A stretch of 64,000 nucleotides of DNA from Gemmatimonadota bacterium (GTDB lineage: Bacteria; Gemmatimonadota; Gemmatimonadetes; Gemmatimonadales; Gemmatimonadaceae). Positions 4,654 through 13,472 of the stretch are shown here, piece after piece. The translations under genes were made by a program, and so were the position numbers. The notes below the pieces were generated by a model. The model saw nothing but the letters and a program-made list of their open reading frames with translations. It searched no databases and was not told the DNA's origin. The stretch is from assembly GCA_003134685.1 (NCBI GenBank), contig PLCA01000016.1, positions 1 through 64,000 of the forward strand. Reading direction: 5' to 3'. Positions within the stretch are counted from its first letter, which is position 1. Each line of letters begins with the position of its first letter.

Positions 4654-4682
4654 TTGTCTTCGGTATATATTCGGTATATAGT
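4654..4682 (+). promoter_or_regulatory. imuB-like promoter with paired TTCGG boxes
   Basis: -35 TTGTCT (4654-4659) and -10 TATAGT (4677-4682) are separated by 17 bp. The spacer holds two TTCGG boxes at 4659-4663 and 4670-4674, start-to-start 11 bp, each followed by TATATA. The dnaE2 promoter at 13438-13465 has the same arrangement, suggesting a shared repressor such as LexA or an equivalent. The operator role is inferred. Confidence 0.6.
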
Positions 4683-4702
4683 TGGTGCCCCCTCGCTGAA
4701 AA

Positions 4703-6043
4703 ATGACCTTCATCTGCCTCTGGATTCCCGCCGCCGTTCCTGCCTCTCTCGCCATCGGCACAACCACCGCCCTGCCGAAGAACGAGATCCTTCAACAACT
4801 GGTGCCTTCGCTACTCGGAGTAGCTCCACGCGTGATGCTGGGAGCGAACGGAATCGTGTGGGCCGATGCGCGCGGAATGAGCGCCGAGTCTTTGGCTAGA
4901 GATCTTCTCGACGTTCTTCACGAGAAGGGAGGGGAGAAGGTGAGGGCTTCCATCTCCATCACTCCAGTCTCCGCCGAGGTCGCCGCTCGTCATGGAAATG
5001 GCGGTCTCGTCACAATCTCGCCGGGGTCGGAGCGCGAGTATCTCGCTCCGTATTCCGTCGGCGTGCTCGAGCCATCGCTCGCTCTGTCGACGATGCTCGA
5101 TGGGATTGGGGTGGAGAGCTGCGGAGATCTGGCGGGACTGGATCTCGAGTCTGTCGAGGTTCGTTTCGGGGCCGAGGGGGCGCGCCTCTGGAGATTGTCG
5201 AGGGCCGACGACTCGCGCCGCATTTTCGCCAGCATGCCGCGGGCGCTGCCGACCGCTTCTCTCGACTGGGTGGATTACACGCTCAAGAATGCGGAGCGCC
5301 TCGTCTTCATCATCAACGCGCTCGTCGGAAACATCACGACGGAGCTCAAGTCGCGCGGCCAGTGCGCGCGCGAGATGACGATGATCTTCTCGCTCGCCAA
5401 TCGTGAGACTTACGAGCATGCGCTGCGGCCCGCGAGATCGACGGCCAGCCACAAGGCGTGGATGCGACTGATACGCTCTCACCTGGAAAGAATCGTTCTT
5501 CCCGATGGCGTCGTCGGCATTACGATTCGTGTAGAAGCGGTAACGGGCGAACTAGAACGCCAGGGAGACATCTTCGATCGCGGATTTGCCACGGCGCGCG
5601 CGGCGGAGGAAACGATCGCACAGCTGCTGGATGATCAGGGCGCGGTGGTGGTGACTCCGCGCAACACGCAGCACCCCTTGATCGATCGCCGCACGGAGTG
5701 GATCAGTCAGGAGCCGTCGCAGGCTTCGGCGAGAATCCAGCTGAGGGAGCGGGTGGTGAAAGCGACCGCCGCTCCCCGGCTAACGCTTCAGCTTCTTTCC
5801 GAGCCCAGGCGAGTCGCTGTGAAAACCAGGCGTCGCCGCGATCACGAGCTGCCGGTGGAGTTTCGCGACAAGCACTGGATGCAGATCATCTCCGCGGCCG
5901 GACCCGATCGCGTCTCGGGTGGCCGCTGGACCGAGCCGTACGCCCGCGAGTATTTCCGCTGCGTTACGGATGATGGGATGATGATCTGGCTATACCGTGA
6001 TGCTAGAGCGGGTGAGTGGTACCTGCATGGGTGGTGGGATTAA
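4703..6043 (+). CDS. imuB: ImuB-like Y-family polymerase paralog (mutasome subunit)
   Basis: A 446-residue protein of the ImuB type: a Y-family DNA polymerase fold that lacks catalytic activity and links DnaE2 to the sliding clamp during damage-induced mutagenesis. The N-terminal strand FICLWIPA matches the usual ImuB opening, followed by the palm-like segment GIVWADARGMSAESLARDL. A helix-hairpin-helix-like part (MLDGIGVESCGDLAGLDLESV) sits near residues 133-155. The C-terminal signature is DRVSGGRWTEPYAREYF then WLYRDARAGEWYLHGWWD, characteristic of ImuB. The N-terminal palm is shorter than usual (family about 500 residues), and the acidic catalytic residues of active Y polymerases are not evident. 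dnaE2 lies 7.4 kb downstream with a matching promoter. No imuA is present in the window. Confidence 0.82.
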   Translation: MTFICLWIPAAVPASLAIGTTTALPKNEILQQLVPSLLGVAPRVMLGANGIVWADARGMSAESLARDLLDVLHEKGGEKVRASISITPVSAEVAARHGNGGLVTISPGSEREYLAPYSVGVLEPSLALSTMLDGIGVESCGDLAGLDLESVEVRFGAEGARLWRLSRADDSRRIFASMPRALPTASLDWVDYTLKNAERLVFIINALVGNITTELKSRGQCAREMTMIFSLANRETYEHALRPARSTASHKAWMRLIRSHLERIVLPDGVVGITIRVEAVTGELERQGDIFDRGFATARAAEETIAQLLDDQGAVVVTPRNTQHPLIDRRTEWISQEPSQASARIQLRERVVKATAAPRLTLQLLSEPRRVAVKTRRRRDHELPVEFRDKHWMQIISAAGPDRVSGGRWTEPYAREYFRCVTDDGMMIWLYRDARAGEWYLHGWWD

Positions 6044-6059
6044 GGACAAACCCACTACA

Positions 6060-6309
6060 AACAGAACGGGATCCGAGATCTCAACTGCAACAGAACGTGA
6101 TCCGAGATCTCAACTGCAACAGAACGGGATCCGAGATCTCAGAAGCGTAGATCTCAGATTTTAGTAACTACGCTGCGACATATCTGGGTGGCGTTATGGC
6201 ACAGGCGGTCGGTTGTACTCGGATACGCGTGGAATACGGTCAGAGCGCGGTGACTACCGACTGAGATCTATGCCCTCTGAGATCTCGGATCCCGTTCAGT
6301 TTGCAGTTG
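6060..6309. repeat. Palindromic intergenic repeat element, copy A
   Basis: This fills the 309-bp gap between the imuB-like and hydrolase genes. Three tandem 29-bp units (6060-6140; core GAACGGGATCCGAGATCTC) lead into a roughly 130-bp core. An inverted unit, GATCTCGGATCCCGTTCAG (6280-6298), closes the element. The core (about 6141-6275) is repeated in reverse orientation at 51865-52018 with roughly nine in ten bases identical, so it has moved or been duplicated. It has no open reading frame. No other signal was seen in this gap apart from the short region just before ATG 6353. Confidence 0.85.
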
Positions 6310-6352
6310 CCGTTCCCTTTCGCGACTCGCTTTCCCGCGCGATTTTCCTGTT

Positions 6353-8386
6353 ATGACGAAAATCGTACGCATCTTCGTTCTTCCCTTGCTAGCCGTCGCC
6401 ATGCTGGCGACTCCCGCCGCCGCGCGCGTCGTCCGGGTCGAGATCCTCACCCGATCCGACATCGCCGGCGCCTTCGGAAACGCCGGCACCTACGAGCGGA
6501 TAACCGGCCGCGTGTACTTCGCGTTCGACCCCAGCAACCCGGAGAACCGGAAGATCGTCGATCTCGATCTCGCGCCGCGGAATTCTGCTGGAGAAGTGGA
6601 GGCCGTGAGCGAATTCGTCATGCTGCGCCCAAAGGATCCGGCGCGCTCGGCCGACCTAGCAGTCATCGACATCGTCAACCGCGGCGGAATCACGACCTTC
6701 ATCTTCAACCTCGACCGCAACGGCACCGCATCGCCGCAATCCGCGGAATTCTACGGCGACGCGCTGCTGATGAAACGCGGCGTCACGATTGTCGCCCTGG
6801 CCTGGCAGTGGGATGTGCCCCCTGGCGGAAGCGCGCTCCACTTTCAGGCGCCACCGGCGGGCTCCGCCGAGCGGCCGATCACCGGACTGGTCCGTAACGA
6901 CATCACGATCGACAGCGCCACGACATCGATCTCGCTCGGGCACAGTCTCGCGCCGACACTCGCCTATCCGGTCGCCGACGAGAACGATCCCTCGAACGTG
7001 CTTAACGTGCGTGACGATCCCGTCGGTCCGCGCACGGTCGTTCCACGGAGCGAATGGCGCTTCGCGCGCGACAGCAGCGGCACAGTCGTGAACGATCCAC
7101 GGTGGGTCTACATGTCGGGCGGATTTGCGCCGGGCAGAATCTACGAAGTCGTGTATCGGGCCAAGGATCCGGTGGTGGTGGGCACCGGGCTCGCCGCCGT
7201 GCGTGACATGATGTCCTATCTCAAATACGATCCATCGGCGGTGGCGCACGTCAGATACGGAATCGGTTACGGTGTTTCCCAGACGGGGAGATTCATCCGC
7301 CACTTCCTCTATCAGGGATTCAACACCGACGAGAAAGGGCGCGTCGCCTTCGACGGTTTTTTCGCCCACACTGCCGGAGCCGGCCGCGGAAGCTTCAACC
7401 ATCGCTTCGCACAACCGTCGCGAGACGCGCAGCCGTACTCAACTTTCTTCTATCCTACCGACGTTTTTCCATTCACGAGCGTTCCAACCCTCGATTCAGT
7501 CACTGGACGTCGCGCCGGCTTTCGCGATGATCTGCGCGGCTCGGGGGCTACCAGAGTTTTCTACGTCGACGGCGGCCATGAATATTGGGGACGCGCCGCG
7601 TCACTCAGTCACACGACGCCCGACGGGAAACAGGATGTCGGATTTCTTCCCACCGAGCGCCGCTACGTCATCTCTTCGGCTCAGCACTCGAGTCCCGGTG
7701 CGTGGCCCGTTTCCGAGAATGCGCGCATCAGCGGGACAAACGCATATCACGGAGATCCGCTCGATCAGCGCCTGGCACTGAGAGCGCTGATGTCGTCGCT
7801 GATCGATTGGGTGAAGGAAGGGAAGGAGCCGCCGCCGTCACTTTATCCAACACTCGCCGGCGGGAATCTTGTGAGGGCAGCGGAAGAGCGCTTTCCCGCT
7901 ATCCCCAATCTCCCGGTCGCGCGCGTCCCGCATCAACCATACAGACTCGACTTCGGACCGAGATGGCGGCATGGAATCATCGACTTCGAGCCACCGAAGG
8001 TGGGCGCGCCATACCCTGTCTTCGTGTCGCGCGTGGATTCGATCGGCAACGATCTTGGCGGAATCAGGAGCATTGAGTTGCTCGCGCCGCTCGCCACGTA
8101 CTATCCGTGGCAACTAAGAACCGGCATGGCCGCGGCAACCGACCGGCTCCTCAGCTTTCGCGGGACCTTTGTGCCTCTTCCAAGGACCGACGCCGAGCGG
8201 AGAACCGCCGGCGATTCGCGTCCGAGCATCCAGTCGCTCTACAGAGATCGAACGCGATTCATGCGGCGAGTGGACGCGGGCATATCAGCGCTCATCAAGC
8301 AGCGATTCTTGCTTCCGACGGATTCCGTCGCCGCGCGGACCCGGATGAGCGATGTCTGGGAGCGGTACGGGGTGATCGCGAAGTAA
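6353..8386 (+). CDS. Exported alpha/beta hydrolase domain protein (PF20091-like)
   Basis: A 677-residue protein with a signal peptide (LPLLAVAMLATPAAA, cleavage near residue 24). The large family with an alpha/beta hydrolase domain starts with VEILTRSDIAGAFGNAGTYERITG and contains the nucleophile elbow GYGVSQTGRF, with Ser at about residue 309. A conserved VDGGHEYW and SAQHSSPGAWP follow, the latter possibly carrying the catalytic His. The length fits this family of uncharacterised extracytoplasmic hydrolases. It lies downstream of the imuB-like gene but is separated from it by a 250-bp repeat element, so co-transcription is doubtful. Its stop codon is immediately followed by the next repeat element. 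Substrate unknown; esterase or amidase activity is the family expectation only. Confidence 0.75.
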   Translation: MTKIVRIFVLPLLAVAMLATPAAARVVRVEILTRSDIAGAFGNAGTYERITGRVYFAFDPSNPENRKIVDLDLAPRNSAGEVEAVSEFVMLRPKDPARSADLAVIDIVNRGGITTFIFNLDRNGTASPQSAEFYGDALLMKRGVTIVALAWQWDVPPGGSALHFQAPPAGSAERPITGLVRNDITIDSATTSISLGHSLAPTLAYPVADENDPSNVLNVRDDPVGPRTVVPRSEWRFARDSSGTVVNDPRWVYMSGGFAPGRIYEVVYRAKDPVVVGTGLAAVRDMMSYLKYDPSAVAHVRYGIGYGVSQTGRFIRHFLYQGFNTDEKGRVAFDGFFAHTAGAGRGSFNHRFAQPSRDAQPYSTFFYPTDVFPFTSVPTLDSVTGRRAGFRDDLRGSGATRVFYVDGGHEYWGRAASLSHTTPDGKQDVGFLPTERRYVISSAQHSSPGAWPVSENARISGTNAYHGDPLDQRLALRALMSSLIDWVKEGKEPPPSLYPTLAGGNLVRAAEERFPAIPNLPVARVPHQPYRLDFGPRWRHGIIDFEPPKVGAPYPVFVSRVDSIGNDLGGIRSIELLAPLATYYPWQLRTGMAAATDRLLSFRGTFVPLPRTDAERRTAGDSRPSIQSLYRDRTRFMRRVDAGISALIKQRFLLPTDSVAARTRMSDVWERYGVIAK

Positions 8387-8582
8387 AACTGCAACTGAAC
8401 GAGAGGTCAGCCGCGAGCCTGAAAGCTGTCAGCTGTAAGCCTTAAAACGTCGGGACGCCCTTGGTGGCGTGATCCCAAAAGCGGTTGATTGTGCCTTGAT
8501 TCGCGCCGATGACGTCCCGACGTCGTGAGGCTTAGAGCTATCAGCTGCAAGCTTCCAGCTAATCTCTCGTTCAGTTGCAGTT
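8387..8582. repeat. Palindromic intergenic repeat element with perfect 19-bp ends
   Basis: AACTGCAACTGAACGAGAG at 8387-8405 is the perfect reverse complement of 8564-8582. Inside, a second imperfect inverted pair (around AAGCCTTAAAACGTCGGGACG at 8438-8458 and CGTCCCGACGTCGTGAGGCTT at 8513-8533) lies around a loop of about 55 bp. The element fills the space between convergent genes exactly: the left end starts the base after the hydrolase stop codon, and the right end overlaps the stop codon of the GT117 gene. Confidence 0.8.
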
Positions 8583-10806
8583 AAGTCCCGGGGAACCCCA
8601 GGATGCGCGCCGCCTTCACGATACTTTTGACTCGGTTCATGACAGCGTCGGCGCCCTTTGCATCTCCTTTCCCCCTCAGCGCTTCCGACAGGACCGCCCC
8701 TGTGAACGCGTAGGTGTAGGGAATTCCGACCGAGGCTCGATCGATCCAATCTCCCTCCTTCACCAGAGCCTCCGGCGCGTGATAGACTTCGTTCCAGAGA
8801 GCCTTTGTGCGCTCGAGATCAACGTTGAGACCCAGTACGTGAGGCGTCTCGGGCGTTTCCGCGATAGGATGGTCGACCAGCTTCTGCACGAAGCCCTGTG
8901 AGAGCAGATACGGCTGCAGTGCGGCGGCAAGGTGGCCGCCTCCGCCAGTCGAGAGGTAAATCGGGCGCTCGGGAAATGCATCCTTGATCAGGCGGAGCAT
9001 CACCAGCTCATCGCGCACGAGGTATCCGGGGTCAATGCTCAGCGTCATGTTGTTGCCCTGCCTGAAAATCTGCGGCTCGTTGATCTGTATGTATTCGGGA
9101 ATCGAGTCCGCCTGGGCGAACGTCATCTTGAGCGGCGGTCCACTCGGCTTCTTCCAGGTGGTTCCGCGATAAATCGCCGGTCCATTGGCGGCATCGTACG
9201 TCTCGATTGGGCGGCGAATCATCTGCCGCACGAACCAATCGGTGTCCAGGTAGGTGGTGACAGCGACGGTCACGTCTCGGCGCACGCCGTCGACTTCCTG
9301 CGCGAACCAGAGCGGGAATGTGTCGTTGTCTCCGTTGGTGATGACAATCGCGTAGGGCTCTAGCGAGTTCAGGTAATCGCGTGCCCACTGGTCGGTGAAT
9401 TCATGGCCAGCCCGCGACGCGAACCGCCAGTTCGCAAAGAGCGGGATTAGCGCGATGAGGAGAATTGGCGCCGCCAGCATGAGTCCGCTCCGCGTCGGCC
9501 ACGACGCGGCTGTGACGGACTTCTTTCCACCGGTCTTCTCCGCCGTTAGCCCTGCGCCTCCGAGCCAATATGCCAGCTGCTCCCAGGCGTAGCCCAGGCC
9601 GATCGCCGCCCACACTCCCCAGGCCGAAAAGCTCCAGATGTAGAAGTAGTCTCGATCACGCACTTCGCGCGCGACGTCGCGCAGCTCCGGATCCTGCGAC
9701 CATCCGTACTTGAAGTTGAGGTAGTAGATGAGCGCGAGCGTCATCGTGAACATGAGCGGACCAAAATACCAGAACGTTTTTCGATCCCGCTCCCAGTGCA
9801 CGTAACCGCCAAGGAGCCCAAGGCCGAGGAACAGGAACGCGAGCATGAACTGAAGTGCCGGCATCGTCCCGTGCGCGTCGCGCAGCCACTGCCACTTGAA
9901 GTAGAACCACCACATTTCGACTTGCGCCGGGTAGGACGCGCCGCGTTCCAGCTTCGGCCCGTACTGCTCGCGGTTGATGTTCGCCATCAACCGCTGCTCC
10001 GTGAGCCCGCTGAAGGTGCAACCAGCCTCGAGCTTCGTTTCGCACCCGGTGGGCGCGCCCTCGTTGATGGCGGGGAAGTAGGCGGCGCGTACCGGCTCGT
10101 AGATGAAAGGCGTGAGCCCGATGATGAGAGCGCCGAGAGCCGCGAGTACGAGTTTCCAACGGAGCAATGTGCGCCAGCGGGTGATGAGCATCGCGACACC
10201 GGCCGCGGGCAGCGGCAGAAATCCGGCCGGATGATTCGAGTAGCCGAGGCCGAGGAGGAAGCAAACCAGTACGACGAGACGATCCGCGCGCGGTGAATCG
10301 GGATCTTCGATCCACTCGATGATGATCCATGATGTGATCGTGAAAAACAGGAGCGAAATGGTGTAGACCTTCTCGTTGACCACCGATTGGTTCCACACCG
10401 TGAATGCCGTCGCACCGATGAGAGTGGCGAGGCTGGCTACAACGAGCCGCTGCCATCTCTCCGCGATCCAGCGTGCGACGATCCTCTCGGTGATCAGAAA
10501 CCAGAAGCCGGCCGAACAGGCGCTGGCGAGCGCGGCCATGATGTTGATCCTGGCGCCGTACGAGACGGGGATTGGCAGTGACGCGAAAGCGTGGCCGAGG
10601 AGTATGAAAAAGGGATTGCCCGGCGGATGCGGGATGCCGAGAACTTTGACCGCCGCCATGTACTCGCCGGTGTCCCACATCGCCACCGAAGGCGCGAGTG
10701 TCAGCAGGTAGAGGACGAATACGAGCGCCGCCGCAATCGCGGCGGGGATGTACGAGGGCTTGTAGCCGTCTCTCTCGAAACGGGCAGCAGAGGCTGTCGT
10801 TGCCAT
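8581..10806 (-). CDS. DUF2723 / GT117-family multipass membrane protein, copy 1
   Basis: A 741-residue protein of the DUF2723 family (PF11028), classed with glycosyltransferase family 117, integral-membrane O-mannosyltransferase-like enzymes using lipid-linked sugars. The first hydrophobic helix (AAIAAALVFVLYLLTLAPS) is followed by the loop motif WDTGEYMAAVKVLGIPHPPGNPFF, which holds the acidic residues expected at the active site of this GT-C fold. About ten further membrane helices run to about residue 480. An extracytoplasmic C-terminal part contains ITNGDNDTFPLWFAQEVDGV. It is a close paralog of the next gene upstream, only 5 bp away, and both are in one minus-strand operon. The acceptor is unknown. 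The stop codon lies in a repeat element. Confidence 0.85.
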   Translation of the reverse strand: MATTASAARFERDGYKPSYIPAAIAAALVFVLYLLTLAPSVAMWDTGEYMAAVKVLGIPHPPGNPFFILLGHAFASLPIPVSYGARINIMAALASACSAGFWFLITERIVARWIAERWQRLVVASLATLIGATAFTVWNQSVVNEKVYTISLLFFTITSWIIIEWIEDPDSPRADRLVVLVCFLLGLGYSNHPAGFLPLPAAGVAMLITRWRTLLRWKLVLAALGALIIGLTPFIYEPVRAAYFPAINEGAPTGCETKLEAGCTFSGLTEQRLMANINREQYGPKLERGASYPAQVEMWWFYFKWQWLRDAHGTMPALQFMLAFLFLGLGLLGGYVHWERDRKTFWYFGPLMFTMTLALIYYLNFKYGWSQDPELRDVAREVRDRDYFYIWSFSAWGVWAAIGLGYAWEQLAYWLGGAGLTAEKTGGKKSVTAASWPTRSGLMLAAPILLIALIPLFANWRFASRAGHEFTDQWARDYLNSLEPYAIVITNGDNDTFPLWFAQEVDGVRRDVTVAVTTYLDTDWFVRQMIRRPIETYDAANGPAIYRGTTWKKPSGPPLKMTFAQADSIPEYIQINEPQIFRQGNNMTLSIDPGYLVRDELVMLRLIKDAFPERPIYLSTGGGGHLAAALQPYLLSQGFVQKLVDHPIAETPETPHVLGLNVDLERTKALWNEVYHAPEALVKEGDWIDRASVGIPYTYAFTGAVLSEALRGKGDAKGADAVMNRVKSIVKAARILGFPGT

Positions 10807-10811
10807 TTTGG

Positions 10812-13031
10812 TCAGGTTCCTGATAGGTTGATTCGCGCCGCTTTTGCGACCTGTCGTACCCTGCCCATAATGGCGTCGGCCGCCTTCTCATCCCCTCGCC
10901 TCGACATCGCCTGCGCCAGGACAGCTCCGGTAAACACGTAAGCGCCCGGAATGCTGATAGAGGGGCGATCGATCCAGTCTCCTTCCTTCATGAGAGCTTC
11001 GGGCGCCCGATAGACCGTGTCCCAAAGAGCCTTGCTGCGATCGACATCGATGAACAAACCAGCTATTTGCGGCGTTGCTGCGTTGTCAGATAGCGGATGA
11101 TCGACCAGCTTTCGCACCAAACCCTGGGAGAGCAGATATGGCTGAAGTCCCAGGCCCTCTCCAACTCCAGCCGCGACGTAGACAGGCCGCTCAGGAAATG
11201 AATCCCTGATTAGGCGAAGGAGCACGAGCTGGTCGCGCAAAAGGTAGCCGCGCGGAATGTCCAGTTTGATGTTGTCCTTCCGGAAAACCTGTGGTTGCGT
11301 GATCTCGATGTAATCCGGAATCGCGTCCGCTTCGCGGAATGTCATCTTGAGCGGGGGACCGACGGGCTTCGTCCACTGGCGATTCCTGTATATCTCCGGC
11401 CCCGCCCCCGCGTCGTAGGTTTCGACCGGTCGACGAATCAGCTGCCGCGCGAACCAGTCGATGCCGAGGTAGGTAGATACCGCGACCGTGACGTCGCGCC
11501 GCACGTTCTCCGCTTCCTGGGCGTACCAGAGTGGAAAAGTGTCGTTGTCTCCACTTGTAACGACGATCGCGTAAGGCTCGAGCGAATTGAGGTAGTCGCG
11601 GGCCCACTGATCCGTGAAATAGTCACCAGCTCGCGATGCGGACTTCCAGTTTGCTACGAGAGGAATGAGTGCGATGAGAAGGATCGGCGTCGCGAGAACC
11701 AAGGCGCGTCTCGAAGGTCGGCGGGTCAGTACAGGCTGCCTACGCTTGATTGTCTCTCGATCCGACTCTACTCGTTCCTTCCCGAGAAAGTACGAGATCT
11801 GTTCCCAGACGAAGCCGAGACCCATCCCCGCCCATACTCCCCACGCTGAGAAACTCCAGATGTAGAAGTAGTCTCGATCGCGCACCTCGCGGTCAACTGC
11901 GTTCCCAAGGTCAGGAGCCTGCGACCAGCCGTATTTGAAGTTGAGGTAGTAGATGAGCGCGAGGGTCATGGTGAACATCAGCGGCCCAAAGTACCAGAAC
12001 GTCTTTCGGTCGCGATCCCAGTGCACGTACCCGCCAAGGAGTCCCAAGGCGAGAAACAGAAACGCCATCATGAACTGGAGTCCCTGCATCGTCTGATGAG
12101 AGTCACGCAGCCACTGCCACTTGAAGTACAGCCACCACATCCCAACCTGGGCGGAATACGGCGCGCCGCGTTCCAGTTTCTGGCCGTATTGCTCGCGATT
12201 GATGTTGTACATCAACCGGTCCTTCGTGAGCTTGGTGAATGTGCAGCTCGCTTCGAGCTTCGTCTCGCACGCGGTGGGCGCGCCCTCATTCATCGCCGGA
12301 AAGTACGCTGCACGGACAGGCTCGTAGATGAACGGCGTGAGACCCAACGTCAGCGCACCGAGACCCGCAAGCACAAGCCGCCACCGTAGCAGGGTGCGCC
12401 AGCGCGTGGTGAGCAATGCGATCCCAGCGGCGGGAAGCGGCAGGAATCCCGCCGGATGATTGGCGTAGCCAAGCCCGAGCAGGAAGCAGACGAGAACGAT
12501 GAGACGATCCGCTCTGCGTGAATCCGGATTTTCGATCCACTGGATGACGATCCACGAGACGATCGTGAAAAACAGCAGCGAGATGGTGTAGACCTTCTCG
12601 TTTACGACGGACTGGTTCCAGACGGTGAACGCGGTCGCGCCGATCAGCGTTGCGACGCTCGCCACGACAAGGCGTTCCCATTTCTCGGCGACCCAGCGCG
12701 CAACGATTCTTTCGGTGATCAGGAACCACAAGCCGGCCGAGCAGGCGCTCGCGAGCGCCGCCATGATATTGATCCTCGCCGCATACGAGACCGGAATCGG
12801 GAGCGACGCAAACGCGTGAGCGAGCAACACGAAAAAGGGGTTGCCCGGCGGATGCGGAAGTCCGAGCACCTTCACCGCAGCCATATACTCGCCGGTGTCC
12901 CACATCGCCACCGAAGGCGAGAGAGTCAGCAGGTAGAGGGCGAATACGAGCGCCGCCGCGATTGCGGCGGGGATGTACGAGGGCTTATAGCCGTTCTCTT
13001 CGAAACGGCGGGTCGGGACGGTCGTTGCCAT
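10812..13031 (-). CDS. DUF2723 / GT117-family multipass membrane protein, copy 2
   Basis: A 739-residue GT117-type membrane protein, first in the operon with its paralog downstream. The N-terminal half is nearly identical to copy 1: same SYIPAAIAAALVF start, WDTGEYMAAVKVLGLPHPPG loop and INREQYGQKLERG segment. Differences concentrate in the C-terminal extracytoplasmic part, for example VTSGDNDTFPLWYAQEAENV instead of ITNGDNDTFPLWFAQEVDGV. This pattern suggests duplication followed by divergence of the acceptor-binding side, or gene conversion in the transmembrane half. Both copies keep the acidic loop. The start is ATG 13031; the 440-bp divergent region to dnaE2 must hold the operon promoter. 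Confidence 0.85.
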   Translation of the reverse strand: MATTVPTRRFEENGYKPSYIPAAIAAALVFALYLLTLSPSVAMWDTGEYMAAVKVLGLPHPPGNPFFVLLAHAFASLPIPVSYAARINIMAALASACSAGLWFLITERIVARWVAEKWERLVVASVATLIGATAFTVWNQSVVNEKVYTISLLFFTIVSWIVIQWIENPDSRRADRLIVLVCFLLGLGYANHPAGFLPLPAAGIALLTTRWRTLLRWRLVLAGLGALTLGLTPFIYEPVRAAYFPAMNEGAPTACETKLEASCTFTKLTKDRLMYNINREQYGQKLERGAPYSAQVGMWWLYFKWQWLRDSHQTMQGLQFMMAFLFLALGLLGGYVHWDRDRKTFWYFGPLMFTMTLALIYYLNFKYGWSQAPDLGNAVDREVRDRDYFYIWSFSAWGVWAGMGLGFVWEQISYFLGKERVESDRETIKRRQPVLTRRPSRRALVLATPILLIALIPLVANWKSASRAGDYFTDQWARDYLNSLEPYAIVVTSGDNDTFPLWYAQEAENVRRDVTVAVSTYLGIDWFARQLIRRPVETYDAGAGPEIYRNRQWTKPVGPPLKMTFREADAIPDYIEITQPQVFRKDNIKLDIPRGYLLRDQLVLLRLIRDSFPERPVYVAAGVGEGLGLQPYLLSQGLVRKLVDHPLSDNAATPQIAGLFIDVDRSKALWDTVYRAPEALMKEGDWIDRPSISIPGAYVFTGAVLAQAMSRRGDEKAADAIMGRVRQVAKAARINLSGT

Positions 13032-13132
13032 TTATGTGATCGAAGGACGTTGGACGAGTGGATGAATTTTAGTCACTCCGCGGGCGCTTTGCGTTGTAAC
13101 TGGCATAGTCGCAACTGAATAGTCGTGTCCGC

Positions 13133-13200
13133 TGACAACTGCAACTGACGGGCGGATTGACAACTACAACCTACGGGCGGACTGACAACTACAGACAACT
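13133..13200. repeat. Degenerate 25-bp tandem repeats
   Basis: Units beginning TGACAACTGCAACTGACGGG (13133-13157) and TGACAACTACAACCTACGGG (13158-13182), with a partial third at 13183, lead into the palindromic element at 13203. They share the AACTGCAACTGA word found at the ends of the other elements in the window. The 100 bp before them (13032-13132) show nothing recognisable other than being upstream of the divergent GT117 operon. Confidence 0.6.
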
Positions 13201-13202
13201 AC

Positions 13203-13387
13203 AACTGAACAGGCGGGAGGCGCCGGTAGCATAGGCATCAGTTTGTTAGTTCACTACGCCCGGACTTGCCTCTGTGGCATTCTGGGCACAACCACTTGCT
13301 TGTGTCATGACTCTACCGAGATAAGTCCGGGCGTCGTGAACTGAATCGCTGACAGCTACGCTACTCACGCCTCCCGCCTGTTCGGTT
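13203..13387. repeat. Palindromic intergenic repeat element between GT117 operon and dnaE2
   Basis: Outer arms AACTGAACAGGCGGGAGGCG (13203-13222) and its reverse complement at 13368-13387 match at 19 of 20 bases. An inner pair (TTAGTTCACTACGCCCGGACTT at 13245-13266 with 13323-13345) pairs around a loop of about 55 bp. The plan is the same as the element at 8387-8582 but the sequence of arms and core is different. The remaining bases to 13437 show nothing else. Confidence 0.75.
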
Positions 13388-13437
13388 GGAGGTATCAGCC
13401 ATTCGCAGTAGCCAGTTCTAAGCAGCCAGTCTCCCCC

Positions 13438-13465
13438 TTGCCTTCGGTCTATGTTCGGGTATACT
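13438..13465 (+). promoter_or_regulatory. dnaE2 promoter with paired TTCGG boxes, leaderless
   Basis: -35 TTGCCT (13438-13443) and -10 TATACT (13460-13465) are 16 bp apart. TTCGG boxes lie at 13443-13447 and 13454-13458, again start-to-start 11 bp. The predicted transcription start falls at or one base before the ATG at 13473, so the mRNA is probably leaderless. The arrangement copies the imuB-like promoter at 4654-4682. Confidence 0.6.
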
Positions 13466-13472
13466 CCGAGCC

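Follow-up and report, generated by a model that had tools for sequence, protein, structure and literature searches.

A TTCGG-N6-TTCGG direct repeat as the probable LexA operator across most of the phylum Gemmatimonadota

The window analysed here, 64,000 nucleotides from a Gemmatimonadota bacterium, carries an imuB-like gene and dnaE2 behind promoters of similar layout, in which two TTCGG elements lie 11 bases apart. Does this repeat mark the operator of a common DNA-damage repressor? The sequence-only reading that raised the question described TTGTC or TTGCC before the paired elements and TATAGT or TATACT after them, a description that the sequence confirms: positions 4654-4682 read TTGTC-TTCGG-TATATA-TTCGG-TATATAGT and positions 13438-13465 read TTGCC-TTCGG-TCTATG-TTCGG-GTATACT. 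The repeats themselves, TTCGGTATATATTCGG and TTCGGTCTATGTTCGG, lie 44 bp 5' of the imuB-like ATG and 30 bp 5' of the dnaE2 ATG, respectively (Table 1), and the dnaE2 transcript is predicted to start at or next to the ATG and thus to be leaderless. The same reading called the two genes unlinked, which holds only in part. They are separate here, but the distance between them is 8.8 kb, both are encoded on one strand, and relatives have them together in one imuA-imuB-dnaE2 operon.

Table 1. Features of the two window promoters and locations of boxes at other SOS-type genes of the source genome
Feature	Position	Strand	Basis or remark
-35-like hexamer TTGTCT, overlapping the first TTCGG	4654..4659	+	Sequence; TTG similarly placed in 85 lexA promoters
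Putative LexA-type operator of the imuB-like gene	4659..4674	+	Same motif at lexA, uvrA and imuA
-10-like hexamer TATAGT, 17 bp past the -35	4677..4682	+	Sequence
imuB-like gene, 446 aa, strongly diverged Y-family polymerase homologue	4703..6043	+	NCBIfam and synteny
-35-like hexamer TTGCCT, overlapping the first TTCGG	13438..13443	+	Sequence
Putative LexA-type operator of dnaE2	13443..13458	+	Same position in relatives with a solitary dnaE2
-10-like hexamer TATACT	13460..13465	+	Sequence
dnaE2 / imuC, error-prone DNA polymerase III alpha paralogue, 1052 aa	13473..16631	+	NCBIfam NF004225
Two lexA boxes	C12:527508 and 527536		At -92 and -64
imuA box	C1:612542		Gene is a weak NCBIfam ImuA match, E 6e-9
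uvrA box	C16:87637		Gene carries UvrA domains
Radical SAM gene box	C13:74089		Rv2578c/PA0069-like

Identification of dnaE2 is straightforward, as its product exceeds the cut-off of the NCBIfam error-prone DNA polymerase model (1031 bits vs 939), and its closest named relatives come from Gemmatimonadaceae and other Gemmatimonadetes MAGs. The imuB-like product has no Pfam domain above cut-off and resembles the NCBIfam DNA polymerase IV model only weakly (E 4e-9, far under the cut-off). Its label is nevertheless correct, because orthologues in relatives occupy the position between a RecA-like imuA and dnaE2, immediately 5' of the latter. The interval between the two window genes contains further features. 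Two tandem, near-duplicate membrane genes of ~740 aa each occupy 8581-13031 on the minus strand, and an imperfect palindrome of ~190 bp follows at 13200-13390 (95-nt arms, 73% complementary, folding z-score -11), stopping ~50 bp 5' of the dnaE2 operator. This MITE- or REP-like element has ~30-40 further copies in the genome, mostly 70-82% identical, and is adjoined at 13133-13217 by three imperfect 25-nt copies of TGACAACTGCAACTGACGGGCGGAT.

Within the window, two exact matches to TTCGG-N6-TTCGG compare with 0.41 expected, a mildly unusual result that by itself is only suggestive. The significance of the motif comes instead from genome-level counts, the window sites alone being weak. In the source genome (3.63 Mb) the exact motif occurs 15 times and a reversed control pattern 6 times. 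Eight of the 15 sites lie ~20-95 bp 5' of SOS-type genes, among them lexA (two sites), imuA, imuB, dnaE2, uvrA and the radical SAM gene. With the motif fixed beforehand on imuB and dnaE2 and then counted at four other promoters (lexA, recA, uvrA and imuA, 150 bp each), four exact sites are found vs 0.0005 expected (P ~2.5e-15). The recA upstream region carries TTCGTAGTTTGTTCGG, a site with one mismatch, ~75-80 bp upstream. A T stands two bases upstream of the second TTCGG in all eight SOS sites; among the other seven, only the atpI site shares it.

These remaining copies roughly equal in number the yield of the control pattern. Six fall inside open reading frames, and the one intergenic copy, ~75 bp 5' of atpI (C5:172492, minus strand; L017:1493-1508) at the ATP synthase operon, may be either a chance occurrence or a non-classical target. 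The motif is thus not common at unrelated genes, a finding that would have told against the operator if reversed. Relaxing the search to one mismatch while requiring the central T gives 65 sites vs 42 for the control, and the 18 further regions that were read add no clear SOS gene; recA alone stands out in this extension. The source genome retains imuA, imuB and dnaE2, split apart and each with its own box, and the occurrence of the motif at these genes, lexA, uvrA and, with one mismatch, recA supports the proposed reading as a shared DNA-damage operator.

Extension of the survey to the phylum places the repeat most consistently at lexA itself. A LexA orthologue was identified in 148 of 150 genomes, and 90 lexA promoters were analysed for a box within 250 bp, 85 from eight families and 5 from the outlying family f9. 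All 85 promoters of the eight families have a box; 77 of them carry a second, in most cases 24-28 bp away. Direct matches number 162 at a spacer of 6, compared with 0-2 at the remaining spacers in the 0-7 range; counts are also elevated at spacers of 9-12 and 19-23, because neighbouring boxes become linked. Hardly any inverted arrangements occur in the lexA promoters (0-5 at any spacing from 0 to 24), and boxes on the opposite strand are likewise scarce, so that the earlier description of a direct rather than inverted repeat stands.

Alignment of the first box in these 85 promoters reveals two conserved elements, a TTG that begins 6 bp 5' of the box and a TAnnnT that begins one base past it, so that the 16-bp box takes up the 17-bp space separating -35 from -10. 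Between the half-sites, T at position 9 (68-82%) is the sole clear preference. The base before TTC is free, with C or T predominating ahead of the first half-site and G, C, A or T ahead of the second. The second lexA box is located 3' of the -10, where it lacks conserved -35/-10 elements of its own. An SOS box is expected to overlap the RNA polymerase site, to occur at lexA for autoregulation, and to be found at recA and other core SOS genes. Overlap is seen at the first lexA box and at both window promoters, with the promoter elements assigned by sequence; the box is present at lexA; and the gene set comprises recA, uvrA, imuA, imuB and dnaE2, together with dinB in a genome of another family (G002).

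The same pattern recurs at the other SOS loci of relatives; absence of the motif there would have told against the operator. A box with 0-1 mismatch precedes recA in 27 of 27 readable promoters, a count that leaves out three unparsed loci. The dnaE2/imu loci of named genomes (239 kb) contain 23 sites on the coding strand and 0 on the other, positioned ~30 bp 5' of a solitary dnaE2 or 4-161 bp 5' of imuA where imuA, imuB and dnaE2 are contiguous as one operon. Across 57 genomes, 942 motif sites were counted vs 244 for the control, with an excess in all 57. Genome G002 has boxes before recA, dinB, imuB and genes for a UvrD-type helicase, an Lhr-type helicase, a radical SAM protein and RND efflux. 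There, the UvrD-like, imuB, Lhr-like and dinB genes (L332, L334, L335 and L336) start within ~25 bp of the box start, which suggests leaderless SOS transcripts. The RND efflux box (C14:51484; L331) lies ~170 bp upstream of its gene and points to a possible link between DNA damage and efflux. No exact box was found at the dnaE2 loci recovered from Latescibacterota, Eremiobacterota and Bacillota. These observations support widening the scope from two genes to a predicted phylum-level operator.

The candidate repressor is a LexA of 202 aa with a clear LexA fold, predicted from its DNA-binding and S24 peptidase domains and its match to TIGR00498. The cleavage site Ala87-Gly88 and catalytic residues Ser122 and Lys160 are all present. 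Its recognition helix reads SLATVHEHL, with SLATVHEH conserved in all 30 LexAs read from family f1, and resembles the Bacillus type. Glu44 in this helix also occurs in the LexAs read from other TTCGG families and aligns with Glu45 of E. coli LexA, a residue that touches DNA. A second LexA-family gene, LexA2, lies downstream of gltX (C3:63905; L024:1406-2050), and its product retains intact cleavage and catalytic residues and an intact S24 peptidase. LexA2 promoters have neither a TTCGG box (0/28) nor a conserved palindrome; GTACG-N4-CGTAC is found only in those of the source genome and its nearest relative.

Family f9 provides insight into how the half-site might be read. The lexA promoters of its five genomes contain TTCGC-N6-TTCGC boxes. 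Four of these promoters read TTGACT-TTCGC-N6-TTCGC-C-TATAAT, and the fifth deviates slightly. This arrangement is a near-perfect sigma-70 promoter enclosing the predicted operator and supports the promoter assignment. All five of the corresponding LexAs have Lys44 instead of Glu44. We hypothesize that the change from TTCGG to TTCGC is linked to this substitution, the pairing representing a single phylogenetic event. Four f9 genomes show no excess of the TTCGG motif (32 vs 51 control), and the SOS regulon is not uniform in this family, because the upstream regions of four recA and two dnaE2 genes (L283-L288) have neither a TTCGC nor a TTCGG box.

Taken together, the repeat, where it lies in promoters, how well it is conserved and which genes carry it make it very probable that TTCGG-N6-TTCGG is the LexA operator, and hence the SOS switch, across most of the phylum Gemmatimonadota. 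LexA proteins in general repress by blocking promoters and are released by RecA-stimulated self-cleavage. LexA binding, repression and damage induction would here follow the same course. A LexA dimer is proposed to contact both TTCGG half-sites in head-to-tail fashion from the same side of the helix, 11 bp being about one turn, an arrangement that would oblige the two-fold dimer to rotate one DNA-binding domain relative to the other, as for alphaproteobacterial LexA. Bound between -35 and -10, it would exclude RNA polymerase. DNA damage would generate RecA filaments that stimulate LexA self-cleavage at Ala87-Gly88 via Ser122 and Lys160, vacating the boxes and jointly inducing lexA, recA, uvrA, the DnaE2/ImuA/ImuB mutasome and the radical SAM repair-type enzyme. 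A more far-reaching proposal is tentative, with the balance tipping slightly against it: that this is a new phylum-wide operator class in which residue 44 (Glu or Lys) sets base five (G or C), and in which a Bacillus-like helix came to bind 11-bp direct repeats independently of Alphaproteobacteria.

An assignment to LexA has to be weighed against other factors that might recognize the box. A different DNA-damage regulator, either LexA2 or a non-LexA protein, could bind the repeat and have lexA merely as one of its targets. The source genome does encode a second LexA-family protein with an intact peptidase, and a five-base repeat could be read by a factor that also controls lexA. Such a regulator is improbable, however, given that lexA is the most constant target and that the shift from TTCGG to TTCGC accompanies a recognition-helix change in LexA itself. 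LexA2 in particular was rejected as the box regulator: its own promoter is devoid of the box (0/28), and the gene is missing from sampled f2 and f7 genomes, which retain their lexA boxes and, in f2, boxes at recA, imuB and dinB as well.

The placement of the first lexA box, which almost always falls precisely between the -35 and -10 of its promoter, would also fit a promoter element common to these genes, such as an unusual sigma-factor site or spacer, in place of an operator. This explanation is less probable still, as the second lexA box lies past the -10 without such elements, the position of the box relative to -35 and -10 differs among genes, and only ~8-9 copies in the genome are in promoter position, all but one at SOS genes. 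A purely fortuitous likeness between the two window promoters would be conceivable from the window by itself, where 8 of 100 shuffles (8%) give two matches per 64 kb, but the genome-wide and phylum-wide counts already refute it, leaving it a negligible probability. LexA thus stays the strongly preferred reader of the repeat.

LexA motifs differ drastically among bacterial groups, and Gemmatimonadota is a common soil phylum. Seventeen LexA motifs had been reported by 2021 (PMC8565304). No published Gemmatimonadota LexA motif or regulon was found in a literature search of incomplete coverage, and priority for this motif is likely but not certain. Knowledge of the motif would make the gemmatimonad SOS regulon predictable from sequence, and would add a further probable example of direct-repeat binding by LexA. 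The natural pairing of Glu or Lys with G or C offers a test of how LexA specificity shifts, and the mutasome, whose parts are dispersed here but each keep a box, cleanly illustrates how regulation is retained while an operon breaks apart.

One of the closest known systems is the alphaproteobacterial box of Caulobacter and relatives, the direct repeat GTTC-N7-GTTC (PMC8565304, PMC9578287). Both have a direct repeat with an 11-bp period and TTC in each half, and the alphaproteobacterial box controls SOS genes including imuA-imuB-dnaE2, as the Gemmatimonadota box is predicted to do. The Gemmatimonadota box differs in its TTCGG half-site, fixed in 85/85 lexA promoters, and its helix SLATVHEHL, and it does not conform to GTTC-N7-GTTC, the preceding base being variable in these promoters. 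The initial contrast with Alphaproteobacteria is therefore upheld for the GG after TTC and the free preceding base but is a partial one, since the two boxes agree in period, direct orientation and the TTC core. The Firmicutes LexA/DinR box, CGAAC-N4-GTTCG (PMC9578287), contains a half-site, GTTCG, that overlaps TTCGG, but as an inverted repeat rather than a direct one; palindromic arrangements of the Firmicutes or E. coli kind are all but absent from the lexA promoters. Balneolaeota, another little-studied phylum, likewise yielded a direct-repeat motif from promoter comparison, TTACACATATTTTWTACATA (PMC7739468), and a regulon with a radical SAM gene and translesion polymerases, although its half-site is unrelated and its period different. 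The LexA-controlled imuA-imuB-dnaE2 cassette, finally, is represented in the source genome by the same genes and regulatory logic, with imuA, imuB and dnaE2 all under one operator type, but in the source genus it has come apart into several units, and every one of them carries a box.
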